Source: Burkholderiales bacterium
Lineage (GTDB): Bacteria; Pseudomonadota; Gammaproteobacteria; Burkholderiales; Casimicrobiaceae
Assembly: GCA_905339295.1 (NCBI GenBank)
Contig: CAJPFI010000006.1
Location: 124,001 to 188,000, forward strand
Reading direction: 5' to 3'
DNA length: 64,000 nt
The position numbers and the translations under genes are program-made. The notes under the pieces were generated by a model. That model searched no databases. It saw only the letters and a list, made by a program, of their open reading frames with translations, and was not told where the DNA came from. Shown here piece by piece: positions 14,611 through 59,055 of the stretch. The first letter of the stretch is position 1. Each line of letters opens with the position of its first letter.

Positions 14611-15696
14611 CTAGCGGGCGCTCGTCAACGCGGCGCTCTTGTCGGCAATGCGCTGCAGCAGTCGTCGCCAGGACTTGACGAAGGACTGCGCGCCTTCCTG
14701 TTGCAGCCGGACCGCCAGCGCGTCGACGTCGATGCCGGCTTGCGCGAAGCGCGCGAGCACGGCCTCGGCATCGCCGCCGTCCGCGGCCATCGCCCCCGTG
14801 AACGTCCCCCGTTCGGCGAAGGCATGAAGGGTCTTCTCCGGGAGGGTGTCGATGGTGTCCGGCGCGACCAGCGCCTCGACATACAGCGTGTCGGATGCGT
14901 CGGGATCCTTGGTGCCGGTGCTGGCCCAGAGCAGGCGCTGCGGGCGTGCCCCGGCGGCGGCGAGCTTGCGCCATCGCTTCGATGCCAGCAGCTCCCGGTA
15001 CGCGCGGTAGGTGCGCAGTGCGATCGCGATGCCGAGCCGGTTGCGCAGTTCGGCGGGCACCCTGTCCCTGACCGCCACATCCCAGCGGCTCACGAACAGC
15101 GAGGCGACCGAGCCGACGCGCGGATCGAGCCCGGCTTCGAGTCGGCGCTCGATGCCGCGCAGGAAGGCCCCGGCGGCAGCGAGGTACTGCTCGGGCGAGA
15201 ACAGCAGCGTGACGTTGATCGGCACGCCGGAGAATATCGATTCCTCGATGGCGGGGATGCCCTCCGGCGTGCCCGGGATCTTCACGAACAGGTTCGCGCG
15301 CTCGGCCTGCCGGTGGATGCGGCGGGCGGCCTCGACGCTGCCCGCGGTATCGGTGGCGAGCAACGGCGAGACTTCCATCGAGACCCAGCCGTCGACGTGG
15401 TCGCTGGCGTCGTGCACCGGGCGGAACAGATCGGCGGCGCGGCGAAGGTCCTCGAGCGCCAGTTCGACGAAAAGGGATTCGCCCGACTTGCCCGCGCGCG
15501 CCTTCTCGCGGATGCCCGCGTCGTAGGCATCGCCATCGCCGATCGCGCCATCGAAGATGCTCGGGTTCGAGGTCAGGCCCGTGATCGAGTAGTCCTCGGC
15601 GTAGCGGCGCAGCGTGCCGTCATCGAGCAGCTCGCGGTTGATGTTGTCCAGCCACAGGCTCTGGCCGAGCTCGCGCAATCGTCGCGTCGGTTTCAT
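14611..15696 (-). CDS. tal: Transaldolase
   Basis: 361 residues, matching the longer (about 360-residue) transaldolase group. ITGLTSNPSIF near residue 38 and NLFVKIPGTPEG with the Schiff-base Lys near residue 140 identify it; LWASTGTKDP and a terminal SFVKSW segment agree. It transfers a dihydroxyacetone unit in the non-oxidative pentose phosphate pathway. It lies 43 bases downstream of the G6PDH gene, forming a zwf-tal unit. Confidence 0.95.
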   Translation of the reverse strand: MKPTRRLRELGQSLWLDNINRELLDDGTLRRYAEDYSITGLTSNPSIFDGAIGDGDAYDAGIREKARAGKSGESLFVELALEDLRRAADLFRPVHDASDHVDGWVSMEVSPLLATDTAGSVEAARRIHRQAERANLFVKIPGTPEGIPAIEESIFSGVPINVTLLFSPEQYLAAAGAFLRGIERRLEAGLDPRVGSVASLFVSRWDVAVRDRVPAELRNRLGIAIALRTYRAYRELLASKRWRKLAAAGARPQRLLWASTGTKDPDASDTLYVEALVAPDTIDTLPEKTLHAFAERGTFTGAMAADGGDAEAVLARFAQAGIDVDALAVRLQQEGAQSFVKSWRRLLQRIADKSAALTSAR

Positions 15697-15739
15697 GGGT
15701 GTGCCTGGCGGGTCGTCCGCGGCGTCTGCAACGAGGTTG

Positions 15740-17128
15740 TCAGCATGGCGCCATCTCCTCGGGCTTCGGATCGTGCCAGCCCGCGCCGCCGGCCACGACG
15801 CGCTCAGCGGACGACGGTCCCCAGCTGCCGGGCTCGTACTCCTGCACCGGCGCGGGATTGGCGAGCACGGGCTCGATCACCCGCCATGCCGCCTCCACGC
15901 TGTCGTCACGCGTGAACAGCGTGGGGTCGCCGCGCAGCGCGTCGCGCAGCAGGCGCTCGTACGGCAACGTTTCGCTGCGGGACTCGTGGCGGGCGATCAG
16001 CTCCACCGGCTCGCCGCGCATCTGCTCGCCATGCTGCTTGACGCGCGCGCCTGCCGAGATCGTCACCTCCGGACCGAGGCGGAAGCGGAAGTAGTTCGAG
16101 GTGGCCGGGCCGATCTCGTCGAAGATCGCCAGCGGCGGGCCGTTCAGGTTCACCCTGACTTCCGTGGCGGTGATCGGAAGGCACTTGCCGGCGCGGAGGT
16201 AGAACGGCACGCCGCCCCAGCGCCAGGTGTCGATGTGGAGGCACAGCGCCGCGAAGGTCTCGACCCGGGAATCCGCCGCCACGCCCTTCTCGTCGCGATA
16301 GCCGCGGAACTGGCCGCGCACCACTTGCGAGGGATCCAGCGGCCGCATCGCGCGGAACAGCCGCAGCTTCTCGGCGAGCATGGACTGCGGATCGCGCCCC
16401 GCCGGCGCATCCATCGCCAGCAGCGCGACCACCTGCAGCATGTGGTTCTGCACGACGTCGCGGATCGTGCCGACTTCGTCGTAGAAGGCGCCGCGGCCCT
16501 GCACGCCGAAGCTCTCGGCCATGGTGATCTGCACGTTGTCGACGTAGTGGCGGTTCCAGATCGGCTCGAGGAAGGCGTTGGCGAAACGGAAGTACAGCAG
16601 GTTCTGCACCGCCTCCTTGCCCAGGTAGTGATCGATCCGGAACACCGCCGATTCGCGGAAGACCTCGTGCAGCGTGCGGTTGAGCGCCTGTGCGGAGGCC
16701 AGGTCGCGACCGAACGGCTTCTCGACGATGATGCGAGCGTCGCTGGCGCAACCCGTTCTCGCCAGCCCCTGGACCACGGCGCCCAGCATGCTCGGAGGAA
16801 TCGCCATGTAGTGCAGCGGCCGCGTGGCGGCGCCCAGGGCTCGCCTCAGGCGCTCGTAGGTCGCCGGATCCGCGTAGTCACCGTCGACGTACCGCAGTTG
16901 CGCCGACAGCCTGGCGAACGCCTGCGCGTCGATGCCGCCGTTGTTCTCCAGGCTGTCGCGCGCGCGCTCGCGAAGCTTGTCCAGCGTCCAGCCGGCGCGG
17001 GCCATGCCGATGATCGGCATGGCCAGGTCGCCTGCGCGGATCAATGCCTGCAGCGCCGGGAAGATCTTCCTGTGCGCCAGGTCGCCGGTCGCGCCGAAGA
17101 ACACGAAGGCGTCGGGACCGGGGATCAT
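15740..17128 (-). CDS. zwf: Glucose-6-phosphate 1-dehydrogenase
   Basis: 462 residues. The NADP-binding loop [10 protein letters not shown] is at the N-terminus, and the active-site motif [13 protein letters not shown] is near residue 175. It oxidises glucose-6-phosphate to 6-phosphogluconolactone, supplying NADPH. The ATG at 17128 is preferred over the GTG two codons upstream because of its spacing from an AGGAGGG. It is paired with tal but not with pgl or gnd, so the unit may be an accessory pentose-phosphate module serving stress NADPH supply. Confidence 0.95.
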
Positions 17129-17504
17129 CGTCACGATCCCTCCTCCCCGCGTGCGCCGTCCGCGCGTTTCCGAAACCGCGGCCGCCTTTCCTGACCGTGC
17201 GAGGCCGGCACGAGCGAGCGAACACGGTCGATGCTCGTGTGGACCGGGTGATCCGGCCGTTCGGCGACCGGCGCATCGACCCGGTCGTTGCCGTCGAGTG
17301 CCGTTGTTCCCGGCGAGAGGGCCGGGCCGTCATCGTGGCGAGGCCGCGCCACGACAACGCCGTGCATCCGCGCTCCGGCATCGGTCACTTGACCCCGCAC
17401 GAGTCCGGGCAGCACCATCCGGCCATTATCGACCAACCGTCCGGAGCCGTGTTCGGGGATCGATGGGCGCGACGTTCCGTGCTCGGGACGACCTGGCGAG
17501 ACGG
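17129..17504. other. Intergenic region between zwf and the YihY gene
   Basis: About 375 bases separating two divergent genes. I see no supported gene and no convincing promoter. The only clear signal is the AGGAGGG ribosome-binding site of zwf on the minus strand at about 17138-17144. Confidence 0.4.
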
Positions 17505-45363: not shown

Positions 45364-46866
45364 ATGGACATGAAGACCCGCCAGCTCGTCGGCACCGCCG
45401 CCAGCACGTTTCTCGCCGCGCCGAAGAAGATGCTGATCGGCGCCGACTGGGTCGATGCCGCCGACGGCGCCCGGCTCGACGTGCACGATCCCGCCACCGG
45501 CGACGTGTTCGCGCACGTGCCCGCGGGCGGCGCCGCCGACATCGACCGCGCGGTGCGCGCGGCCCGCGCGGCGTTCGAGGACGGACCGTGGCCCGCAACC
45601 TCGCCGTCCGGGCGCGAGCGCCTGCTGCTCGCGCTCGCCGACCGGGTCGAGGCCAACGCGCAGGAGCTCGCCGAGATCGAGTCGCTGGACAACGGCAAGT
45701 CGGTGATGCTCGCGCGCCACGTCGACATGGCGATGGCGGTCGACTTCCTGCGTTACATGGCGGGCTGGGCGACCAAGATCGAGGGCACGACGCACGACGT
45801 GTCGGTGCCGTTCATGCCGCAGGCGAAATTCTTCGCGTGGACGCGCCGCGAGCCGGTCGGCGTCGTCGGCGCGATCATCCCGTGGAACTTCCCGCTGCTG
45901 ATGGCGGCGTGGAAGATCGGGCCGGCGCTCGCGACCGGTTGCACGGTGGTGCTGAAGCCGGCCGAGGAGACGCCGCTCACCGCGCTGCGGCTGGGCGAGC
46001 TGATCCTCGAGGCCGGCATTCCCCCGGGCGTCGTCAACATCGTCACCGGCCTCGGCGAGACCGCCGGCGCGGCGCTCGCCGCGCATCCGGGCGTCAACAA
46101 GATCGCGTTCACCGGTTCCACCGCCGTCGGCAAGCTCGTGCAGCGGGCGGCGCTCGAGAACATGACCCGCGTGTCGCTCGAGCTCGGCGGGAAGTCGCCG
46201 GTCATCGTGCTCGACGATGCCGATCCCGCGCAGGCGGCCGCGGGCGCGGCGCAGGCGATCTTCTTCAACCAGGGACAGGTCTGCACGGCCGGCTCGCGGC
46301 TGTACGTGCAGAAGAAGCTGTTCGACCGCGTCGTCGCCGAACTGTCGGCGATCGCGGGAAAGATGAAGCTCGGTCCCGGGCTCGACCCGGCGAGCGAGCT
46401 CGGGCCGCTGGTGTCGGAGGTGCAGATGAACCGCGTCTGCGGCTACATCGACGGCGGCGTCGGGCAGGGCGCGAAGGTCGCCACCGGCGGCGGCCGCGCC
46501 GGCGGCAAGGGCTACTTCGTGAAGCCCACGGTGCTCGTCGATGCGCGGCAGGACATGCGCGTCGTGCAGGAGGAGATCTTCGGGCCGGTGGTCGTCGCGC
46601 TGCCCTACGACGACGTCGACGACGCGGTGCGGCTCGCCAACGACACGCCCTACGGGCTCGGCGCGTCGATCTGGTCCAACGACCTCGCGCGCGTGCACCG
46701 GATGATCCCGCGCATCAAGGCCGGCACCGTGTGGGTGAACTGCCACAGCATGCTCGACGCGAGCCTGCCGTTCGGCGGCTACAAGCAGTCGGGCATCGGG
46801 CGCGAGATGGGCCGCGCCGCGATCGACCTGTTCACCGAGACCAAGGCAGTGATGATGGCGGTGTGA
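45364..46866 (+). CDS. Aldehyde dehydrogenase, probably phenylacetaldehyde-type
   Basis: 500 residues, no signal peptide. The nucleophile Cys is in FNQGQVCTAGSR, the general-base Glu in LELGGKSP, and the NAD-binding motif FTGSTAVGK is present. The overall resemblance is to FeaB/phenylacetaldehyde dehydrogenases. Its position 25 bases before the amine dehydrogenase alpha gene indicates it oxidises the aldehyde that the dehydrogenase releases. The aldehyde has to reach the cytoplasm first. Specificity is inferred from context. Confidence 0.9.
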   Translation: MDMKTRQLVGTAASTFLAAPKKMLIGADWVDAADGARLDVHDPATGDVFAHVPAGGAADIDRAVRAARAAFEDGPWPATSPSGRERLLLALADRVEANAQELAEIESLDNGKSVMLARHVDMAMAVDFLRYMAGWATKIEGTTHDVSVPFMPQAKFFAWTRREPVGVVGAIIPWNFPLLMAAWKIGPALATGCTVVLKPAEETPLTALRLGELILEAGIPPGVVNIVTGLGETAGAALAAHPGVNKIAFTGSTAVGKLVQRAALENMTRVSLELGGKSPVIVLDDADPAQAAAGAAQAIFFNQGQVCTAGSRLYVQKKLFDRVVAELSAIAGKMKLGPGLDPASELGPLVSEVQMNRVCGYIDGGVGQGAKVATGGGRAGGKGYFVKPTVLVDARQDMRVVQEEIFGPVVVALPYDDVDDAVRLANDTPYGLGASIWSNDLARVHRMIPRIKAGTVWVNCHSMLDASLPFGGYKQSGIGREMGRAAIDLFTETKAVMMAV

Positions 46867-46891: not shown

Positions 46892-48454
46892 ATGCGACAC
46901 GACTGGGTATCGCCGATCGTCGTCGGCCTCGCGCTCGCCGCCGCGAGCGGCGTCGCCGGGGCCTTCGGCCAGGACTCGCTCGTCATGGACAAGTGCGGGA
47001 CCTGCCACGTGCCGGCCGCCGACGGCCGGATCCCGCGCGTCGAGGACATGCGGACGACGCCGGAGGAGTGGACGGTCATCGTCGACCGGATGCGCCGGCT
47101 GCACGGGATGAAGCTCAAGGACGGCGAGATGGACCGCCTGCTGAAGGAGCTCTCGGCCACGCAGCTCCTTAAGCCCGACGAGCAGGCGCAGGTCGCGTAC
47201 CTCTCGCTGTGGCACAACTCGCAGCAGGTGGAGACGCCGACGGGACCGGAGCAGGAGAAGGTGTACGCGACCTGCGTGCGCTGCCATGCCGCCGGCAAGA
47301 TCCACTCGTACCGGATGACGCCCGAGGCCTGGGCGAAGCTCCGCGACTTCCACCTGTACATCTCGCCCACCGTCGTCTTCACGATGCGCGAGATGCGCTG
47401 GATCCCCGAGGCCGACGCCGCATTCGCGTACTACGCGCGGAATCTGCCCTACGGCGGCGCCTGGTCGGCACCGGCGGCGAAGCTCGCGGGCCGTTGGGCG
47501 ATCTTCGGCTACGCCCCGGGCCGCGGACACTACCGCGGGGAGGCGACGATCGCGGACGCCGGCAACGCGGAGCTCGAGCTCTCCGGCCGCGTCGCCCATG
47601 CGGACGGCACGTCCGAGTCGTTCGCGGGCGACGGCACGCTCTACGGAGGCTACGCGCTGCGCACGAGGACGTCGAACAACGGCTTCGCCGCCCGGGGCGC
47701 CTTCATCGCGTCCTCCGACGAGATCGAAGGCGAGTGGCACCTGCCCGCCCCGGACTTCCGCACGTCGCGCTCGCGGTGGCTGCGGATCGGAGATCAGCCG
47801 AAGGTCGCGCGGATCGTCCCGGGATTCCTGCTCGCCGGCGAGAAGGCCGTTCTCACGGTCGAGGGCGTCAACCTTCCCGACGCGAAGGCATCCGACATCG
47901 CGTTCGCCGGCGGCGCCGTCAAGGTGCTCTCGGCGCGGCGCGTGTCGCCGGGAGCCATCGAGCTCACCGTCGTCAGCGGCGCCGGAACGCTTCGCACGGC
48001 AAGCGTCTCGGTCAAGGGGCTCGACGCGGGGACCGTGACGCTCGCGCCGCGCATCGACCGCATCGCGATCACGCCGGAGGTCGGGCGCGCGCGCATGTCG
48101 GGCGGTACGCACTACCCGGCCGAGGGCGTGCAGTTCGAGGCGATCGCCTACGCGAAGACCGGCAGCGGCAAGGGCGCGACATCCGTGGCGCTGGGCCCGG
48201 TGCCGGCGACGTTCCGCCTCGCCGAGCAGAAGACGCGACCGGACGACGACGACATGACCTGGCTCGGCATGATCAGGGCCGAGGGCACCTATCTGCCGAC
48301 CGTCGACTACGCGCCGAATCCGAAGCGCACCTACACGGGCGAGAACAGCGGGCTCGTCAAGGTCCTCGCCCGCTACAAGCGAGGCGGGCGCACGTACGAC
48401 GCGCAGGCGGAGCTCGTCGTCACGGTGCCCGACTACATCGCGAGGATCCGGTGA
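46892..48454 (+). CDS. qhnA: Quinohemoprotein amine dehydrogenase alpha subunit (diheme)
   Basis: 520 residues with a signal peptide (about 1-24). Two covalent heme-c motifs: CGTCH at 35-39 and CVRCH at 128-132. The rest is the Ig-like and beta domains of QHNDH alpha. It carries electrons from the CTQ cofactor of the gamma subunit to periplasmic acceptors. The protein acts in the periplasm with QhnB and QhnC. First gene of the amine dehydrogenase set, 25 bases after the aldehyde dehydrogenase. Confidence 0.95.
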   Translation: MRHDWVSPIVVGLALAAASGVAGAFGQDSLVMDKCGTCHVPAADGRIPRVEDMRTTPEEWTVIVDRMRRLHGMKLKDGEMDRLLKELSATQLLKPDEQAQVAYLSLWHNSQQVETPTGPEQEKVYATCVRCHAAGKIHSYRMTPEAWAKLRDFHLYISPTVVFTMREMRWIPEADAAFAYYARNLPYGGAWSAPAAKLAGRWAIFGYAPGRGHYRGEATIADAGNAELELSGRVAHADGTSESFAGDGTLYGGYALRTRTSNNGFAARGAFIASSDEIEGEWHLPAPDFRTSRSRWLRIGDQPKVARIVPGFLLAGEKAVLTVEGVNLPDAKASDIAFAGGAVKVLSARRVSPGAIELTVVSGAGTLRTASVSVKGLDAGTVTLAPRIDRIAITPEVGRARMSGGTHYPAEGVQFEAIAYAKTGSGKGATSVALGPVPATFRLAEQKTRPDDDDMTWLGMIRAEGTYLPTVDYAPNPKRTYTGENSGLVKVLARYKRGGRTYDAQAELVVTVPDYIARIR

Positions 48455-49863
48455 CGCAGGCCTACGCGTGGGCGGACCACCGGATCTTCGCGCGCGAGGA
48501 TGCGGACGGCGGCGCGCTGCTCTTCGGCGCCGACCAGGCGAGCCTGTTCGCGATCGACCGCGCGACGCGCGAGGTCATCGACCGGTGGCGCACGCGTGCG
48601 CCGATCGTCCTCGACGACGTTCCGTCCGACGACCGCGAGGTGCTGGACGCGCTCGCGGACGCGCAGCTTCTCGTCCCGGCCGCCTGGCTGCGCAGGGCCC
48701 GGTGCGCGCCGATCGACCCCGCGACGATCCCGCTGGCCACGCTCGTGCTCGAGGCCGCGCAGGCGTGCAATCTGCGCTGCACCTATTGCTACGCGGGCGG
48801 CGGCGCCTACGGCGGCGAGGCGCGCGTGATGCGCCCGGAGCTCGCCGCGCGTGCGGCGCGCCACCTGGTCGAGTCGTCGGGTGACCGGGAATCCGTCACG
48901 CTAGTGCTGTTCGGCGGCGAACCCCTCCTGAACCTCCCGGCGCTGAGGGCCGCGGTGCTCGCGGGCGAGTCGGCCGCGGCGGCCCGGGGCAAGCGGCTCG
49001 TCGTCTCGATCACGACCAACGGCACGCGCTTCTCCCCGGAAGCGCTCGATTTCCTCGCCGACCACCGGATCGGCGTGTCGGTGAGCATCGACGGACCGCC
49101 GGATCTGCACGACGCGAACCGCCGGTACGCGGGCCGCAGCGGCGGCGGGACCTACGCGGACGTCGTCGACGGCGTCGCGCGCCTGCGCGAACGCACCGGC
49201 AGGCCGCCCGCCGCGCGCGTGACGCTCGAGCCGTCCCAGTGGTCGCGGATTCCCGAAGTGTTCGAGCACGTGCGCTCGCTGGGCTTCCTCGAGGTCGGCA
49301 TCGCGCCGACGAGCCCGGTGTCGGCGGCGCTCCTGCCCACGCCGGACGAGGAAGAGGCACTGCTCGAGGGCTTCGCGCGCATCGCGCACCGCTTCGTCGA
49401 CGAGGCCGCGAGCGGGCGCGTGCTGCCGTTCTCCAATCTCCTCGACCTGCTCGCCAGGCTGCACCTGGGCCAGGTCAAGGGCGAGCCTTGCGGCGCGGGC
49501 CTGGGCTATCTCGCGATGGACGCCGAGGGCGCGTTCTTCCTGTGCCACCGGTTCGCCGGCAACGGAAAGTTCCGCGTCGGCGACCTCGACGCCGGGGTCG
49601 ACCACGCGAAGGTGCGCGCCTGCCTCGACGAGCAGGCCGCGCCGCGCGAGGACGCATGCTCGTCCTGCTGGGCACGCAGCCTGTGCGCAGGCGGCTGCCA
49701 CTACGAGAACCACCAGCGCGAGTCGGTGCTCGGCCTGCCGCAGGGCGGTTCCTGCGATTTCATCCGGCGCTGGATCGAGCTTGGCATCCGCGTGTACGCG
49801 AGCCTGCGCGACGACCCCGGCCATCCGGTGCTCGCGTTCCTCGGCCGGCGGGCCGAAAGCTGA
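48451..49863 (+). CDS. qhnD: Radical SAM maturase of QHNDH gamma subunit
   Basis: 470 residues, GTG start overlapping the qhnA stop by four bases. The [4Fe-4S] SAM motif CNLRCTYC places Cys at 106, 110 and 113. The C-terminal SPASM domain has Cys-rich GEPCGAGLGYLAMD and EDACSSCWARSLCAGGCHY stretches for two auxiliary clusters. QhnD forms the three Cys-to-Asp/Glu thioether crosslinks in QhnC. It is cytoplasmic and its substrate gene follows at once. Confidence 0.95.
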   Translation: MTQAYAWADHRIFAREDADGGALLFGADQASLFAIDRATREVIDRWRTRAPIVLDDVPSDDREVLDALADAQLLVPAAWLRRARCAPIDPATIPLATLVLEAAQACNLRCTYCYAGGGAYGGEARVMRPELAARAARHLVESSGDRESVTLVLFGGEPLLNLPALRAAVLAGESAAAARGKRLVVSITTNGTRFSPEALDFLADHRIGVSVSIDGPPDLHDANRRYAGRSGGGTYADVVDGVARLRERTGRPPAARVTLEPSQWSRIPEVFEHVRSLGFLEVGIAPTSPVSAALLPTPDEEEALLEGFARIAHRFVDEAASGRVLPFSNLLDLLARLHLGQVKGEPCGAGLGYLAMDAEGAFFLCHRFAGNGKFRVGDLDAGVDHAKVRACLDEQAAPREDACSSCWARSLCAGGCHYENHQRESVLGLPQGGSCDFIRRWIELGIRVYASLRDDPGHPVLAFLGRRAES

Positions 49864-49885
49864 AACCCGATCCACGGAGCAGGCG

Positions 49886-50209
49886 ATGAAAAAGAAGCCG
49901 ATCGAGGCACTGAACGAGAAGGCGAAGGCGATCGAGCGGCTCGCCGAGGGCGAGCAGGCGACCGCGGAGGCGCTCTCGCAGCGCCGGATGCCGCAGGGCT
50001 GCACGACGATCTTCGACACCGGGTGGGAGACCAACCCGCGGCCGACCTACCCGGTCGGCAACTGCCAGGCGTCGGCGCGCGATTTCCACGGCTGCGTGGG
50101 CGACTGCTGGTGGCCGGCGCAGATGCCCGACGGGCTCACCAACCATCGCGATTTCGACGTGCAGTGCCCGAACGTCGCGCGTGACTGGCGCAACCTCAAG
50201 TATGACTAG
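49886..50209 (+). CDS. qhnC: QHNDH gamma subunit, CTQ-bearing peptide
   Basis: 107 residues. An N-terminal leader of about 32 residues (no Sec signal) precedes the mature part. The crosslink pairs known from the family are all present with the right spacing: C39-E48 (9 apart), C60-D66 (6), C74-D82 (8), and the CTQ-forming pair C70-W76 (6). The spacing between the first and second pair is one residue shorter than in the Pseudomonas putida protein as I recall it. C94 is additional. It needs QhnD, a tryptophan hydroxylase, the ABC exporter and the leader protease to mature. Confidence 0.95.
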   Translation: MKKKPIEALNEKAKAIERLAEGEQATAEALSQRRMPQGCTTIFDTGWETNPRPTYPVGNCQASARDFHGCVGDCWWPAQMPDGLTNHRDFDVQCPNVARDWRNLKYD

Positions 50210-50213
50210 GAGG
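50208..50213 (+). promoter_or_regulatory. Shine-Dalgarno of qhnB overlapping the qhnC stop codon
   Basis: AGGAGG at 50208-50213 shares two bases with the TAG of qhnC and stands six bases before the qhnB ATG. Such an overlap favours coupled translation of the gamma and beta subunits. Confidence 0.7.
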
Positions 50214-50219
50214 CCTCCG

Positions 50220-51230
50220 ATGCGCTGGGTACCCCTGATCCTCGCAACGATGGCGGCCCTCGCGCTCGGCCTCGCGCCGCGCGCGGAGGCGGGCGATCGC
50301 TACTACTACATGGGCTACGGCGTCGTGCAGGTGATCGACGGCGACACCGACACGATCGTCGCCGACATCCCGGTCAAGGGCGCGGTGCGCAACGTCGACC
50401 TGAGCGCCGACCGCAGGTTCCTCTACGTGACGACCAACCGTCACCTCGTCCACAAGGTCGACCTCGCGCACAACCGCGTCGTGTCGACCGCGGACGTGAA
50501 GACCGACGGCTGGGACCGGGTGATGTTCGGCTTCGTGCTCGCTCCCGACGGAAGGACGGCGTACGGCGCGTTCATGTCGCGGCGGGCGGACAAGGGCGAG
50601 GTGTTCATCGGCAAGCCCGTCGTCGCGCAATTCGAGCTCGACACCGGCAGGATCGTGCGCAGCGTCGAGGTGCCGTGGGGCGTCGCGCATCTGGTCAGCG
50701 TCCGCGACGGCAGCTCGATCTACGCGTTCGGGCAGGACCTCTACACGATCGACACGACCGGTCCCGAGCTCAGGATCGCCGCGACGCAGCCGATCCTCGA
50801 CAAGGGGATGAACATGCTGCCGTTCTGGGACTACACGTTCGACAACGGCGGCATCGCGAGCATGAACTACTACACGGCAACGTCGATGGGCCTGATGATC
50901 GTCGACCAGAAGACCGGCGTCATCGACGACCTCGTGCTGAAGGGCGATCCCGCGATGGCGTACTCGGTGGTGCTCGCCCCGGACCGTAAGCGGGCCTGGG
51001 CGGTGATGGACGATCTCACCGAGATCGACCTCGCCAGCAGGTCGTACCTGCGGTCGGTGCCGATCGCCGAGGGGACCTGCTACGGCGTCAACGTCTCGTC
51101 CGACGGCAGGAAGGTCTACGTGGCCGGCGGCGGATCGACGCTGACCGTCTACGACGCGAAGACGCTGAAGCCGCTCAAGGTGCTGCAGATGGCCTCCGAC
51201 GGCATGGACCTGCGCCGGGTCACCTTCTGA
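50220..51230 (+). CDS. qhnB: Quinohemoprotein amine dehydrogenase beta subunit
   Basis: 336 residues. Signal peptide LATMAALALGLAPRAEA, then a seven-bladed propeller with repeated D-x-D-T-x-x-V-x-D-I-P and D-x-K-T-x-x-x-x-L patterns, ending KVLQMASDGMDLRR. It forms the periplasmic platform for the gamma subunit. No covalent heme. Separated from qhnC by ten bases. Confidence 0.95.
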   Translation: MRWVPLILATMAALALGLAPRAEAGDRYYYMGYGVVQVIDGDTDTIVADIPVKGAVRNVDLSADRRFLYVTTNRHLVHKVDLAHNRVVSTADVKTDGWDRVMFGFVLAPDGRTAYGAFMSRRADKGEVFIGKPVVAQFELDTGRIVRSVEVPWGVAHLVSVRDGSSIYAFGQDLYTIDTTGPELRIAATQPILDKGMNMLPFWDYTFDNGGIASMNYYTATSMGLMIVDQKTGVIDDLVLKGDPAMAYSVVLAPDRKRAWAVMDDLTEIDLASRSYLRSVPIAEGTCYGVNVSSDGRKVYVAGGGSTLTVYDAKTLKPLKVLQMASDGMDLRRVTF

Positions 51231-51320
51231 CCGCGGGGATGCCGTGAACGGCGCGCGATCGGCGACGCGAGGCACGGGCCGCCGCGACGATGGCGCGAAG
51301 GGAGGCGCTTGGAATACGCA

Positions 51321-52148
51321 ATGCGCCTGACGAGTCCGGCGGACGCCCCGCGGGATCCCCGCGACGCGTGCCCGCCGTCCTGGCGGGACATGCTGCCCGA
51401 CGGCCCCGCGGTCGCGCTGTACTTCGGATCGGAGTTCTGCGAGGACCGCCTTCCCGACCTCGACGAGGCGAGCGCGTTCTGCGCGGTCGCGCGCGACCGC
51501 GGCTGGGAGCCGACGCTGCTCACGCCGCTCGTGTCGCCCGAGGGCCTGCGCGCCGTGGACCAGCTGGCAGGGGCGCTCGGGGCGGCGGGGTTCCGCCCCG
51601 CGGTCGTGTTCAACGACTGGGGCGTGCTGGGGCTGTTGCGCGAGCGTCACGCCGCGCTGCCGCGCCGGGCCGGGCGGCTCGTCAACCGGTCGCTGCGCGA
51701 CCCGCGCGCCTACCGGGACGCGCCCGGGGGCACCGCCACGCACGACGTCTCGCGACACGCGCGGATGCGCGGCATGCTGCGCCGCCTCGGCGTCGCGGCG
51801 CTCGAGACCGACGCCGACCTCGAGGGAGGCTACCTGGGCGAAGGGCGCGGCAGCGACGGCACCGGACTCAGCCGCGCGCTGCACCTTCCGTACACCTACG
51901 CTGCGTCGGGGCGCGGCTGTCCGCTCAAGGCCGCGCTGTACGGCGACGAGGGCGGCTTCGCCAAGGCGTTCGCGGATCGCTGCCCGGCACCGTGCCGCGG
52001 CAAGCCGCTGCCCGTCCATCGTCCCGACTCCGCGCTCCCGCACTGGCGCGGTGGCAACACGATCTTCTACGAGCTGCCGCACGAGGCGGCACGCTCGTGG
52101 CTCGTGCACGCCGACCGGGTCGTCGTCCACGGGAGCGCGTCGCCTTGA
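51321..52148 (+). CDS. UbiV-like U32-family iron-sulfur protein in the QHNDH operon
   Basis: 275 residues from ATG 51321; a TTG 12 bases upstream is an alternative. FGSEFCED near 40, VVFNDWGVLGLL near 100 and a Cys set at C40, C200, C221 and C225 (last two CxxxC) resemble UbiV, whose [4Fe-4S] cluster uses an N-terminal Cys plus three C-terminal ones. UbiV works with UbiU in oxygen-independent hydroxylation of a ubiquinone intermediate. Here it lies 90 bases after qhnB and its stop overlaps the start of a UbiU-like gene. A role in hydroxylating the QhnC tryptophan is inferred from context, not shown. Confidence 0.75.
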   Translation: MRLTSPADAPRDPRDACPPSWRDMLPDGPAVALYFGSEFCEDRLPDLDEASAFCAVARDRGWEPTLLTPLVSPEGLRAVDQLAGALGAAGFRPAVVFNDWGVLGLLRERHAALPRRAGRLVNRSLRDPRAYRDAPGGTATHDVSRHARMRGMLRRLGVAALETDADLEGGYLGEGRGSDGTGLSRALHLPYTYAASGRGCPLKAALYGDEGGFAKAFADRCPAPCRGKPLPVHRPDSALPHWRGGNTIFYELPHEAARSWLVHADRVVVHGSASP

Positions 52149-53251
52149 ACATCCTCGCGCCGCTCGCCCGCTCGGACGAGGTCGCGCCGCTGTGCGACGC
52201 CGGCGCGCACGAGTTCTACTTCGGACTCAACCCGCCGGGCTGGGAGGAGGCGTTCGGCCAGGCGTCGGTGCACCGGCGCAGCGTTCGATCCGCGGGCGTT
52301 CCGGGACTGGACGACCTGCGCCGGATCGTGCGTCGAGCCGGCGGCAGGCCGGTCTTCGCGACGCTCAACGCGCCGTCCTATCCGGCGGGCGCGGTGCCGC
52401 GGCTCGTCGAGTTCGGACGCACGCTGGTCGAGGACGAGGGCGTCGCCGCGCTCATCGTCGCCGAGCTCGAGCTCCTGCTGGCGCTCGCCGACGCGGGGCT
52501 CGCCCCGCGCGTGCACGTGTCGAGCCTCGCCACCTGCCGCAATCCGGGCGCGGCGGCGTTCTACCGCGACCTCGGCGTCGCGCGCGTGATCCTTCCGCGC
52601 CACATGACGCTCGCCGAGATCGACGAGACCGCGATCCCCGGGCTCGAGTGGGAAGTCTTCGCGCTCAACGACGGATGCGCGTTCGAGGAGGGCACCTGCT
52701 CGACCACGCACGCCTTCCGCCCCTACTGCATCGACGATCGCGTCGGCCGCGCGCCGGGCCGCCTGGACGAGCGCTACGCGTTCTGGAAATGGACGCTCGA
52801 CAACTGCGGCTCGCAGACCAGCCGCGGCTACACGCTCGGTCCCTGCGGGCTGTGCGCGCTGCCGCGCCTCGCGCGCGCCGGCGTCGCCAGCCTGAAGGTC
52901 GTGGGCCGCGAAGCCCCGCTGGAGCGCAAGGTGGCGTCGGTGCGGCTCGCGTCGATCGCGCTCGGCCTCGCGGCGCGCGGCGCGACGCGCGAGGACATTC
53001 GCGACGCCGTCGTCGGCGAGCGCGGCGCGCCGGAGCTCTGCGAGGGTGCGCATCTCTGCTACTACCCGGACGCCTGGACCGCGGAGCCGGTCCAAGGAGC
53101 GCAACCGGCGGCCGCGCCGGTGCGTGACGCTCGCGCATCGGGCGCGCCGCGCGCCGGATGCGCGCCGCCCGCAGGCCCGCCCGCCGACCGGGTCGACGCG
53201 CGTCCGGTCGCCGTGGTCCGGCGCACCGCGACGCAGGGGGGATCGTGCTGA
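52145..53251 (+). CDS. UbiU-like U32 peptidase-family iron-sulfur protein in the QHNDH operon
   Basis: 368 residues, TTG start overlapping the upstream stop. The U32 layout is visible: N-terminal barrel strands (NILAPLARSDEV, EFYFGLNPPGW), VHVSSLATCRNPGA near 131, then C178-x6-C185, C195, C221 and C234-x2-C237 followed by LKVVGREA, which corresponds to the family LKIEGR. Known UbiU uses four Cys for a [4Fe-4S] cluster with a similar C-x6-C pair. The last 50 residues are Ala/Pro/Arg-rich and dispensable-looking. Its partner is the UbiV-like protein. The substrate is inferred to be the amine-dehydrogenase precursor rather than a ubiquinone intermediate. Confidence 0.8.
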   Translation: MNILAPLARSDEVAPLCDAGAHEFYFGLNPPGWEEAFGQASVHRRSVRSAGVPGLDDLRRIVRRAGGRPVFATLNAPSYPAGAVPRLVEFGRTLVEDEGVAALIVAELELLLALADAGLAPRVHVSSLATCRNPGAAAFYRDLGVARVILPRHMTLAEIDETAIPGLEWEVFALNDGCAFEEGTCSTTHAFRPYCIDDRVGRAPGRLDERYAFWKWTLDNCGSQTSRGYTLGPCGLCALPRLARAGVASLKVVGREAPLERKVASVRLASIALGLAARGATREDIRDAVVGERGAPELCEGAHLCYYPDAWTAEPVQGAQPAAAPVRDARASGAPRAGCAPPAGPPADRVDARPVAVVRRTATQGGSC

Positions 53252-54996
53252 CGTCGGTTCGCCGCTACGCGCATCACCTGTCCGGTCGCCGCCGGGCGCT
53301 GGCCGGCGTGTTCGTGCTCGGTCTGTGCGGCGCGACGGTCAGTCTGTCGACACCGCTTCTGGGCATGGCGTTCGTCGACGCGGTCGCGACTCGCGCCGAC
53401 TTCGGGGCGATCCCGATGATCGCCGCGGCGCTGGTGGCGCTCGCCGTCGTCGATCTCGTGCTCGCGGCGATCGCGGCACGCGTCCATGCGCGGCTGTCGG
53501 CCGACCTGCTCGCCGACCTGCGCATGTCGCTGTTCGCGCGCTGCGTCGACGGACCGCTCGAAGCGATCGAGCCGTTCCGCCACGGCGACCTGCTCACCCG
53601 GTTCGGCGGCGACGTTCCGCGCATCCAGGCGCTGCTGGTCGACGGGCTGATCGGCGGCGTGCACAACGCGCTGTTCCTGGTCGTGGCGGCCGCGATCACG
53701 TTCAGCCTGTCGCCGACGCTGGCGCTGTGGAGCTTCGCCGGCCTCGCGCTCGCGCTCGTCGCCGCGGCCGCGTTCCGCCGCGCGGTCGAGGACGGGACGC
53801 GCCGCGTGCGCGACGCGATGGCCGACCTGTCGCACTTCCTGTCCGAGCGCCTCGCCGCGCTCCGCGCGATCCGCCTGCATCGTGCCGCGGACGAGGAGTC
53901 CGCGCGACTCGCGGCCGCGCAGGCGGCGCTGAAGCGCGAGGTCGTCGCGTTCCAGCTCGTCGATTCGCTGTCCGCCGGCGTGCCGGGCCTCGCCCTCACG
54001 CTCGCACTCGCATGGATCTACCTCGCCGGCGGCGCGCTGCTCCAGGCGGGAACGATCACGCTGGGCACGTTCGTCGCGTTCGTCCTCTACCAGGGTCGCC
54101 TGTTCGCACCGGCGCAGGGGCTGCTCGGGCTGGTCCGTCACCTGCAGGAGGCGCGCGTGAGCCTCTCCCGCGTGGCCGAGGTCCTCGGCCCCGTCGATGC
54201 CGGCGCGTCGACGCCGGCCGCGCCGGCGCCCGCCGGGGAGCGGCGCGGCGCGATCGCGTTGCGCGGGGTCACGTTCGCCTACGCCGGAAAGCCGCCGGTG
54301 TTCCGTGGCGTGGACCTCGACATCGCGCCGGGCGAACGGGTGGCGCTGTTCGGCGCGTCGGGCGCGGGCAAGTCGACGCTCGTCCAGCTGGTGTTCGGCC
54401 TGCGCGTGCCGGGCGAGGGCTCGGTGCGCGTCGGCGGGCGGCCGGCGCACGGGGCCGGGCGCGCCCCGCGCGGCGACGACCTCGGCTACGCGGGCGCCGA
54501 GCCGTTCCTGCTGCACGCGACGGTCGAGGAGAACCTGCGCTACGGCCATCCGGCGGCGCGGCGCGCGGACGTCCTGCGCGCCGCCGCGCTGGCGGACGCC
54601 GACGCGTTCATCGCCGCGTTGCCCGAGGGCTACGCGACGGTGATCGGCGGACGCGGGCTCGCGCTCTCCGACGGCCAGCGGCAACGCCTCGGGCTCGCGC
54701 GGCTGTTCCTGCGCGACCCGGGGATCCTCGTGCTCGACGAGGCGTTCTCGGCCCTCGACCTCGACACCGAGATGCGCGTGCGGCGCAACCTGTGGCGGGC
54801 GTTTCCGGATCGCACCGCGCTCGTCATCTCGCACCGCCCGGCGGGCCTCGCGGACGTCGACCGCATCCTGATGCTGCGCGACGGCCGGTTCGTCACGGTG
54901 GCGCCCGGCGAGCTCGCCTCGCCGGTCGCGCCGACCGGCGACGGGCGCATGCGCGCCGCGCCGGCCGCCGTCGCGGTGGCCGCGCAGATGCGCTGA
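53245..54996 (+). CDS. qhnF: ABC exporter, QhnF-like
   Basis: 583 residues, GTG start overlapping the U32 stop by seven bases. Residues 1-320 hold a six-helix ABC transporter domain; the ATPase follows with Walker A GASGAGKST near 372, signature LSDGQRQR near 472 and Walker B ILVLDEAFS. It is a half-transporter that dimerises. In the QHNDH system QhnF exports the crosslinked QhnC peptide to the periplasm; position between the maturation genes and the protease gene agrees with that. The name rests on this context. Confidence 0.87.
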   Translation: MLTSVRRYAHHLSGRRRALAGVFVLGLCGATVSLSTPLLGMAFVDAVATRADFGAIPMIAAALVALAVVDLVLAAIAARVHARLSADLLADLRMSLFARCVDGPLEAIEPFRHGDLLTRFGGDVPRIQALLVDGLIGGVHNALFLVVAAAITFSLSPTLALWSFAGLALALVAAAAFRRAVEDGTRRVRDAMADLSHFLSERLAALRAIRLHRAADEESARLAAAQAALKREVVAFQLVDSLSAGVPGLALTLALAWIYLAGGALLQAGTITLGTFVAFVLYQGRLFAPAQGLLGLVRHLQEARVSLSRVAEVLGPVDAGASTPAAPAPAGERRGAIALRGVTFAYAGKPPVFRGVDLDIAPGERVALFGASGAGKSTLVQLVFGLRVPGEGSVRVGGRPAHGAGRAPRGDDLGYAGAEPFLLHATVEENLRYGHPAARRADVLRAAALADADAFIAALPEGYATVIGGRGLALSDGQRQRLGLARLFLRDPGILVLDEAFSALDLDTEMRVRRNLWRAFPDRTALVISHRPAGLADVDRILMLRDGRFVTVAPGELASPVAPTGDGRMRAAPAAVAVAAQMR

Positions 54997-55001
54997 ACGC
55001 G

Positions 55002-55631
55002 ATGCGCATCGGCATCGTCGACACCGGCGTCAACCCGTGGCATTCGCACGTGCGGGGCGAGGTCGACGGCTGCCGCATTCACGTCGCGCAGGACGGCTCG
55101 CTCGCCGAGGACCGCGACTTCCGCGATCCGGCGGGCCACGGCACGGCCGTCGCCGGCGTGATCCGGGAAGCGCTTCCCGACGCCAGCCTCTACGCGGTCC
55201 GCGTCTTCGACGGCGCCGACGCGACATTCCCGTCGCTGGTCGCGCGCGGCATCCTGCGCGCCGCCGCGGAAGGCTGCGACTTCGTGAACCTGAGCCTGTG
55301 CGTTCCGCCCGGGCCCGGGGCGCACGTGCTCGCCGGCGCCTGCGCCGCCGCGATCGAGGCGGGCTGCGTGATCGTCGCGTCGGCGCGGCCCGGGGAAACG
55401 GGATGGCTGCCCGCGTCGCTGCCGGGCGTCTACGCGGTGTCGGCCGACGACTCGCTCGACCCGGACGACGTGCGCGAGCGCGGTCCGTTTCGCCTCGCGG
55501 CGTCGGGTCGGCCCCGCGCGCTCGGCGGCGTGCCGCGCGAGCGCAACTTCCTCGGCCCGTCGTTCGCCTGTGCGCGGGCCCTCGTCCATCTCGCGAGGCG
55601 ACGGCGTGCGGCCGTCATCCGGTCCGCGTGA
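55002..55631 (+). CDS. qhnE: Subtilisin-like leader peptidase, QhnE-like
   Basis: 209 residues, no signal peptide. The catalytic triad of subtilases is complete: D7 (GIVDTGVN), H46 (GHGTAVAG) and S187 (GPSFACARA). It is much smaller than secreted subtilases, as expected for QhnE, which removes the QhnC leader. It starts six bases after the ABC gene. Its 3' end overlaps the convergent fusion gene by 17 bases. Identity rests on the triad, size and operon context. Confidence 0.88.
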   Translation: MRIGIVDTGVNPWHSHVRGEVDGCRIHVAQDGSLAEDRDFRDPAGHGTAVAGVIREALPDASLYAVRVFDGADATFPSLVARGILRAAAEGCDFVNLSLCVPPGPGAHVLAGACAAAIEAGCVIVASARPGETGWLPASLPGVYAVSADDSLDPDDVRERGPFRLAASGRPRALGGVPRERNFLGPSFACARALVHLARRRRAAVIRSA

Positions 55632-57663: not shown

Positions 57664-58866
57664 TCAGCGCGGACTGGCATCGGATCCCGGCCGCGTGTCG
57701 GCGGTGAGCGGGCTCGCGACCGCGCGCGGAAGGCTGGGCGTCACGAGGATCGAACCGTAGCAGACGAGATAGAGCGCGAACGCCGCGATCCACGCGAGGC
57801 CCGCGGCGGCGACCCACGCCTCGCCCCCGTTCGCGATCGCGGCGCCGGTCCGGATCAGCGCGGCGGCCTGGACGAGGAGGAACGCCGCGACCATCGCGCG
57901 CGGAATCGCGAGCGGCCGGCCCGTGTGCCGCAGCGCGACACGCGTCATGAGCCCGATCATGACCGATCCGAGCGCGCCGGCCGTGAACGCGTGCAGCCAC
58001 GCGCGCTCTGCGCCGGGGAGGCCGAGCTCGCCCAGCGCCCGCAGCAGGAACGCGGCGACCAGCCACGCGTAACCGGCGTGCATCGTCCACAGGAGCGGCA
58101 CGTCGAGGACCTTCCAACCCCGCCAGCGGCCCAGGCGCACGGCGTGGAGGATGAACGCGGCGAAGGCCGCCACCGCGCGCCAGGACGCCGGCGCGCCGGC
58201 GAGGTCGACCGCCGCGAGCACGACGATCGCCCCGATCGAGGCGACCTCGAGCGGGCGCACGAACGGCGCCTGCGCGCCGCGGCCGGTCGCGCGCAGGTGA
58301 TTGCCGGTGAACACCGGCGTGAACACGCCGCCGGCCAGCGCGAACAGCAGCACGATCGAGTACAGCGCGGCGCGCAGCCCCGTCTGCACCTCGCCTGCGC
58401 CGAACAGCGCCTCGCCCGCGAACATCCCGGCGATCACGACGAGCAGCAGGAGCCAGGTGCGGTCGGCGATGCGCATGAGCTGCCGCGCGAGCATCGCGCC
58501 GAGCACGACCCAGAGCGCGCACGCGGTGGCGACGCCGAGCCATGCCGGCAGCGCATCGCGGAACCAGAAGCCCGCGCGCGCGACGGCCCACAGCGCCACG
58601 AGGCCGGCGAGCGGCGCGCCGCGGATCTCGGGCGTGCCCGCCCAGCCGGGCAGCGCGGTCAGCGCGATCGCGCAGACGATCGCGGAGGCGAACCCGAACA
58701 GCATCTCGTGGCCGTGCCACAGCGGGGCGTCCGGCGCCGCCGCGACGCCCGCGCGCACGGCGAGCCACGCGGCCATCAGCGCGATCCCGTAGGCGACGCC
58801 GAGCACGCAGAGCGGACGGAACGGGCTTGCCCAGAGGGAAGCGAACGGCAGCGTCGGCGGGGCCAT
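57664..58866 (-). CDS. NnrS family membrane protein
   Basis: 400 residues with about twelve membrane helices. HGHEMLFGFASAIVCAIALTALPGW near 50 and GGVFTPVFTGNHL near 190 are NnrS signatures with conserved His for heme/metal. NnrS is linked to nitric-oxide stress and denitrification. Start ATG 58866 is taken; an ATG 63 bases upstream would add a Pro-rich stretch. It is followed after 33 bases by the dehydrogenase/hydratase fusion gene. Confidence 0.88.
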   Translation of the reverse strand: MAPPTLPFASLWASPFRPLCVLGVAYGIALMAAWLAVRAGVAAAPDAPLWHGHEMLFGFASAIVCAIALTALPGWAGTPEIRGAPLAGLVALWAVARAGFWFRDALPAWLGVATACALWVVLGAMLARQLMRIADRTWLLLLVVIAGMFAGEALFGAGEVQTGLRAALYSIVLLFALAGGVFTPVFTGNHLRATGRGAQAPFVRPLEVASIGAIVVLAAVDLAGAPASWRAVAAFAAFILHAVRLGRWRGWKVLDVPLLWTMHAGYAWLVAAFLLRALGELGLPGAERAWLHAFTAGALGSVMIGLMTRVALRHTGRPLAIPRAMVAAFLLVQAAALIRTGAAIANGGEAWVAAAGLAWIAAFALYLVCYGSILVTPSLPRAVASPLTADTRPGSDASPR

Positions 58867-58914
58867 CGGCGTTGGCGTGGGGAGGGATCGCGGCGGGGCG
58901 GGGGCGGCGGCCGG

Positions 58915-58941
58915 TTGACACGCGGGCATCGAATGTATACC
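58915..58941 (+). promoter_or_regulatory. Putative promoter of the GntR-thiolase-ligase-HyuA unit
   Basis: A perfect TTGACA at 58915-58920 and TATACC at 58936-58941; the spacing of 15 bases is short. It lies about 115 bases before the GntR start and overlaps the dyad at 58935-58961. Confidence 0.5.
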
Positions 58942-58961
58942 GTACCCGCAATACGGAATAC
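58935..58961. promoter_or_regulatory. Inverted repeat, probable GntR operator
   Basis: GTATACCGTA and TACGGAATAC form a 10-bp inverted repeat with one mismatch around a 7-base spacer. It overlaps the -10 box, so binding would block transcription. The neighbouring GntR/FCD regulator is the natural ligand, and GTAT/ATAC half-sites suit that family. Confidence 0.6.
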
Positions 58962-59055
58962 ATGCAATCGTCTCCCCGGCGCCACCCCACGATTCGCCTC
59001 CGCGCTCCCGCGCCGACCCCGCCACCCGATTCCGCCACCGACGCCCGCCGACCCG

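Follow-up and report, generated by a model that had tools for sequence, protein, structure and literature searches.

The window (the whole stretch of DNA analyzed, 64,000 nucleotides) carries a QHNDH operon on its plus strand at 46892–55631, in the order qhpA, qhpD, qhpC, qhpB, two U32-type genes, qhpF, and qhpE, with qhpA, D, C, B, F, and E all together. The original prediction called the operon qhn and the missing hydroxylase QhnG; the published names are qhp and, for the known Trp dihydroxylase, QhpG (PMC7876137). QhpA (dihaem alpha subunit of QHNDH; 46892–48454) and QhpC (gamma subunit precursor, the substrate; 49886–50209) score above the curated cut-offs, with 294.8 bits on TIGR03908 (cut-off 274.35) and 120.1 bits on NF037958 (cut-off 50), respectively. 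QhpD (radical SAM thioether maturase; 48451–49863; TIGR03906, E = 3e-98, top of 66 families; 329.5 bits, cut-off 453), QhpB (beta subunit; 50220–51230; TIGR03907, 107.8 bits, cut-off 223.2), and QhpE (subtilisin-like leader protease; 55002–55631; NF049966, E = 1.3e-36; 126 bits, cut-off 165) each match their own model best yet fall under its curated cut-off; these three were assigned by match and gene order, and because of their scores we call the operon divergent. The ABC exporter gene qhpF (53245–54996; PF00664 and PF00005) takes its name from family and position. All of these genes lie on the plus strand, and a scan of the operon for promoters and terminators found none. Just upstream, an aldehyde dehydrogenase gene (45364–46866, plus strand; PF00171, E = 1e-176; the start was our choice) likely provides the next catabolic step. 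An NnrS gene near the operon (57664–59001, minus strand; PF05940, E = 2.4e-79) hints at a nitric oxide or denitrification physiology.

Between qhpB and qhpF lie U32a (51309–52148) and U32b (52145–53251), both on the plus strand and joined through a TTGA overlap of the U32a stop (TGA, 52146–52148) and the U32b start (TTG, 52145–52147). U32b matches PF01136 (Peptidase_U32; E = 2.9e-23), a U32 protein of the UbiU/TrhP/RlhA kind. At E = 0.01, U32a matched no family in Pfam or NCBIfam; compared profile to profile, it aligned with UbiV (hhalign, 82.6%; E = 9.6e-6), which was the nearest of the three profiles compared (UbiV, UbiU, and U32b). The AF2 model of U32a (mean pLDDT 82.4) had as its top PDB match the U32 peptidase 5d88 (probability 1.00; E = 1.9e-5; TM 0.47–0.52), and on profile and predicted fold we identify U32a as a member of the U32 superfamily. 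The U32b model is a TIM barrel with pLDDT below 50 in the C-terminal tail and in most of the C178–C195 loop, so that the cluster site is unreadable from it; its Foldseek matches were mainly general TIM barrels, with 5d88 at rank 2, and are therefore informative on little but the fold. Thus the overlap, the PF01136 match, the UbiV profile, and the fold bear out the earlier description of an overlap-coupled UbiV-like and UbiU-like pair at this place, except that the UbiU-like label holds for U32b only as superfamily kinship, since the protein falls in a clade of its own rather than with UbiU.

Most near homologues of U32a start with MEYxxRL or similar, making TTG at 51309 a likelier start than ATG at 51321. 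The cysteines of U32a described in the original prediction are present, but its numbering, counted from ATG 51321, shifts from C40, C200, C221, and C225 to C44, C204, C225, and C229; all four are invariant (22/22 sequences; spacing x150–167, x18–21, x3). In U32b, C178, C185, C195, C234, C237, C299, and C305 are invariant in 21/21 full-length sequences (one further copy, cut by a contig end in locus L040, was excluded), with spacing x6, x9–13, x38–57, x2, x59–62, x5 overall and C178-x6-C185-x9-C195-x38-C234, C237, C299-x5-C305 in the window. C221, which had been listed alongside C178, C185, C195, C234, and C237, varies among the full-length sequences. Three of the invariant cysteines, C237, C299, and C305, come in addition to four UbiU-type ligands and are perhaps a second metal site. 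Neither protein matched a flavin family in Pfam or NCBIfam.

In an alignment of 8 QhpC sequences (A1), the crosslink residues C39/E48, C60/D66, C70/W76, and C74/D82 (presumably paired in this way) are invariant. W76, encoded at 50111–50113 on the plus strand, aligns with the CTQ tryptophan, and its position is W in 22/22 U32-type and 69/69 other QhpC. The thioether and CTQ sites are likewise kept in the 22 U32-type and 69 other QhpC, the exception being D82 in L040, where QhpC is split over two frames. Since these residues are kept, CTQ formation should still need two hydroxyls on W76, which we infer to be the equivalent of Trp43 of P. putida, from the Trp42–Trp43 pair named in PMC7876137. QhpC also has a fifth cysteine, C94, beyond the four for CTQ and thioethers; it occurs in most of the window clade and in the Schinkia and Acidobacteria types, including the QhpG-bearing L063.

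Distribution of QhpG and the U32 pair

With E = 1e-3 as the threshold, a QhpG query from a canonical operon (P0003; 420 bits on PDB 7ctq) matched nothing in the window genome (98% complete) or in the congener G686, and had a match of at least 180 bits in all 8 of the 8 other qhpC genomes above the cut-off in our first samples. As the whole genome has no QhpG match, the window has none either, as the original prediction had noted for a QhnG-like flavoprotein. Loss of QhpG through poor assembly is unlikely given the completeness of the window genome and the agreement of the congener and 20 more genomes (16 of them MAGs).

The survey of qhpC genomes for mutual exclusion that the original prediction had proposed was run with a QhpC alignment against about 85,000 species genomes. 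It returned at least 283 relatives, of which the best 80, nearest to the window QhpC and hence a non-random set, were kept. Among these best 80 of at least 283 loci, the U32 pair was found in 20, QhpG in 46, neither in the stretch in 14, and both in none. Genome-wide, no QhpG was found in any of the 20 U32-type genomes of these best 80 loci (two matches of about 20 bits only); 16 of the 20 records are titled MAG, and for these the absence is weaker evidence. Eleven of the 14 loci with neither have QhpG elsewhere in the genome (one as an 82-bit fragment). The other three comprise L072, an additional locus in a U32-type genome; L106, whose pair is elsewhere; and L099, a MAG with neither. We also ran the U32b profile against the genomes of 50 of the 60 non-U32 loci (the other 10 are all Pseudomonas), which gave at least 383 bits in three and no more than 112 bits in the others. 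Of these three, the MAG G819 also has QhpG; its U32 pair is on a 7.7-kb contig devoid of qhp genes. Among the 69 genomes searched for both QhpG and the pair, 21 have the U32 pair only, 46 QhpG only, 1 both, and 1 neither (Fisher p = 1.8e-15, kinship ignored). The proposed exclusion was nearly complete in this survey (0/80 loci with both; no QhpG found in 20/20 U32-type genomes), with G819 as an exception.

Quantification of the remaining operon genes in the 20 U32-type loci showed that qhpD is kept in 19, qhpF in 18, qhpE in 15, qhpA in 18, and qhpB in 19; where qhpD, qhpF, or qhpE is missing, the contig ends early, except in L044. QhpG is the sole maturation gene consistently gone from the U32-type loci. 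When 398 genomes of the phylum were searched, with up to 5 candidates scored in each, the qhp-type U32b was found in one, the window genome (464 bits; next best 123), and in none of the 398 was it seen without QhpC. Two weak QhpC matches were not counted as qhpC, namely G715 (23 bits, under the cut-off; its 20 kb contain no qhp gene) and the second match of G833 (24 bits). The viral contigs and plasmids searched contained no relative.

Examination of the neighborhood of 15 loci (59 of 109 neighbor ORFs scanned) revealed mostly AMP-binding enzymes, followed by aldehyde dehydrogenases and two-component proteins; no oxygen-donor gene (chorismate mutase etc.) was among the commonest 25 of 61 families. 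In the deltaproteobacterial U32-type locus L036, a gene of the aldehyde ferredoxin oxidoreductase family (15678–17477; under the NCBIfam cut-off) lies directly 3′ of qhpE, a place where some other loci have an aldehyde dehydrogenase. The acidobacterial genome G775 has a split system, with D-C-U32a-U32b-F-E and A-D-C-B at separate places (L043 and L072).

Phylogeny, hosts, and genomes with both systems

A QhpD tree with 74 rows (a quick tree with long-branch warnings, leaving out 13 Pseudomonas rows and L044, L085, L099, and L106, with QhpD too short) requires 5 changes of the U32 label, of which well-supported branches force at least 3. With genome-level traits on 79 rows, the U32 pair needs 7 changes and QhpG 6. 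A kinship-corrected test with 5 independent pairs found QhpG differing in the opposite direction in 3.5 on average, no difference in 1.5, and the same direction in 0, which by itself does not reach significance (p = 0.125). The 24 rows of qhp-type U32b fall into a single clade (support 100/100) apart from 6 UbiU, 2 TrhP, and 2 further proteins that we took to be RlhA from their length; NCBIfam confirmed the TrhP and two of the UbiU proteins.

By record title, the U32 hosts among the best 80 of at least 283 loci span four phyla and include Burkholderiales, Aromatoleum, Azoarcus, Rhodospirillales, Terasakiella, Geobacter, Geopsychrobacter, Schinkia azotoformans, and Acidobacteria. Several of these groups, relatives of Geobacter included, are anaerobes or denitrifiers. 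The titles of L048 (Nocardioides marinus) and L102 (a Klebsiella pneumoniae MAG) clash with their QhpD, which falls among the Leisingera and Haliea types, and these are probably mislabeled or contaminated assemblies.

We also examined 17 genomes from the genus to which L103 (Aromatoleum buckelii) belongs, a sample of Aromatoleum/Azoarcus that also includes the L110 genome, titled Azoarcus sp. Aa7. QhpC is present in 17, the U32 pair in 16, QhpG in 7, both in 6, and QhpG only in 1. Strict mutual exclusion of the pair and QhpG is ruled out by these 6 of 17 genomes together with G819, indicating that the pair is not always a replacement for QhpG and could have an additional role. In G834 and G838, one operon includes QhpG, and another, diverged U32 pair lies no more than 20 kb away. 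In G839, G840, G845, and G846, QhpG stands by itself, with no qhp genes in the stretches fetched (11.8–20 kb). The QhpG genes at L148–L151 have no qhp neighbor in the sequence fetched, and the qhp operon of the same genomes carries the U32 pair. The likeliest reading of the genomes with both is that they may run parallel aerobic and anaerobic routes, by analogy with E. coli, which has UbiIHF and UbiUV in parallel (PMC10470549).

Predicted role of the U32 pair

We consider it quite likely that U32a and U32b are the two halves of a heterodimeric Fe-S U32 hydroxylase that replaces the flavoprotein QhpG in making CTQ. This reading is supported by the intact QhpC residues, by the missing QhpG match, by a repeated and almost mutually exclusive swap between QhpG and the pair, and by the invariant cysteines in UbiU/UbiV-like spacing; choosing the best 80 of at least 283 loci by likeness to the window QhpC weakens it. 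The replacement of QhnG put forward in the original prediction is thereby supported for 21 of the 22 U32 genomes tested in the 80-locus survey, which have no QhpG, but does not extend to the 6 of 17 Aromatoleum/Azoarcus genomes with both. The heterodimer, its clusters, the hydroxylation of Trp, and the oxygen donor are all predicted features of the pair, and its O2 independence we infer from family and distribution. In our view the pair represents a new subfamily of paired U32 proteins, predicted to act on a protein, rather than UbiU/UbiV proper.

In the proposed pathway, QhpD would first form three thioether bridges in QhpC. A complex of U32a and U32b, with one [4Fe-4S] cluster per half and perhaps an additional metal site in U32b, would then place two hydroxyls on W76 with no O2, the oxygen donor probably being prephenate, as reported for other U32 hydroxylases. 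QhpE would next cut the leader and QhpF export the product, and oxidation to the quinone would come last, in the periplasm. With somewhat less assurance, though still as the probable account, we propose the wider statement that a paired U32 Fe-S enzyme dihydroxylates a protein Trp without oxygen, probably from prephenate; no U32 hydroxylase before it would have acted on a protein, and it would be an anoxic route to a protein-derived quinone, found in at least 4 phyla by record title and running parallel with the flavoenzyme in some denitrifiers.

A variant of this explanation, whose probability overlaps with that of the explanation itself, is that the pair is an O2-independent backup to QhpG, used according to oxygen supply in facultative anaerobes, the U32-only hosts having lost QhpG. 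We consider it possible but doubtful: the Aromatoleum/Azoarcus genomes with both types and the E. coli parallel (UbiIHF and UbiUV; PMC10470549) favor it, whereas in the 21 of 22 U32 genomes with no QhpG the pair would be the sole system. More improbable is that genomes without QhpG rely on another, unlinked oxygenase to hydroxylate the Trp and that the pair serves another step of QHNDH maturation (QhpD cluster repair, closure of the Cys–Trp bond, or a real peptidase step). The retention of QhpG beside the pair in 6 of 17 Aromatoleum/Azoarcus genomes is consistent with another step, as is the naming of U32 proteins as peptidases. However, QhpG alone among the qhp maturation genes consistently vanishes with the pair, and the conserved cysteines resemble ligands of Fe-S U32 hydroxylases. 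A peptidase step is further countered by the retention of the leader protease gene qhpE in 15 of 20 U32 loci (of the remaining five, four are on contigs ending early and one is L044), and the physiology of Geobacter-type hosts makes an O2-dependent substitute unlikely. That the pair is an ordinary ubiquinone UbiU/UbiV happening to sit in the operon, as the shared superfamily and paired arrangement might suggest, is hardly credible and is ruled out by the separate U32b clade (100/100), by its score of 45.5 bits on the UbiU model (cut-off 440), by the separate UbiU with adjoining UbiV elsewhere in the window genome and G686 (545 and 548 bits on the NCBIfam model; cut-off 440), which makes the operon pair an extra one, and by the way U32b follows qhp through four phyla (record title) and was not seen without QhpC in the 398 genomes.

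Returning to the hydroxylase reading, two QHNDHs reportedly initiate the breakdown of amines without oxygen in A. aromaticum EbN1, to go by the title of Schmitt 2019. How CTQ forms without air thus needs an answer, since QhpG, the only described Trp hydroxylase that we found, is thought to use O2; the U32 pair is a concrete and testable one. No paper joining QHNDH or tryptophylquinone with U32 was found in a search that covered few subscription papers, and Schmitt 2019 may mention the genes. If the proposal is true, the reach of the U32 oxidases, whose substrates described to date are RNA and quinone precursors, would extend to protein modification, and a soluble protein substrate would become available for studying the poorly understood U32 chemistry.

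Comparison with known systems

The closest parallel to the pair is the O2-independent ubiquinone hydroxylase UbiU/UbiV, whose experimentally established Fe-S ligands in E. coli are C169, C176, C193, and C232 in UbiU (C-x6-C-x16-C-x38-C) and C39, C180, C193, and C197 in UbiV (C-xn-C-x12-C-x3-C; PMC6747719). U32a and U32b each have four such Fe-S-type cysteines with similar, not identical, spacing. Both systems are adjacent U32 genes with C-x6-C-xn-C-x38(or more)-C in one protein and C-xn-C-xn-C-x3-C in the other, and in the pair too a U32 fold is predicted and a [4Fe-4S] cluster expected in each. In contrast to UbiU, U32b has three more invariant cysteines and forms a separate clade (of the pair, U32b only was in the tree). 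Whereas the UbiV-like gene comes first here, linked to qhp, with a predicted protein substrate, E. coli ubiUV has the reverse order, adjoins ubiT, and acts on ubiquinone precursors.

TrhP and RlhA, which are single proteins, belong to the same superfamily as U32b, and with 91–95 bits for TrhP, 84–90 for UbiU, and 67–79 for RlhA, U32b appears by sequence score about as close to TrhP/RlhA as to UbiU. They act on RNA, and the usual U32 spacing is C-x6-C-x15-C-x3/4-C (PMC6747719, PMC11574389). Ubiquinone oxygen reportedly comes from prephenate via U32 enzymes, and the RNA-modifying U32 enzymes are prephenate-dependent too (PMC11574389). In the parts of the literature covered, the substrates of U32 hydroxylases are RNA or quinone precursors and none is a protein.

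MauG, LodB, and GoxB also complete Trp-derived quinone cofactors but are haem or flavin enzymes acting on mono-hydroxylated Trp and not U32 proteins (PMC7876137). QhpG shares with the pair the predicted step, i.e., the addition of two hydroxyls to the CTQ Trp of cross-linked QhpC (Nat Commun 2021, PMC7876137; PDB 7ctq), and differs from it in being a single FAD monooxygenase with a proposed mechanism that uses O2 (PMC7876137), whereas the pair belongs to the U32 superfamily.
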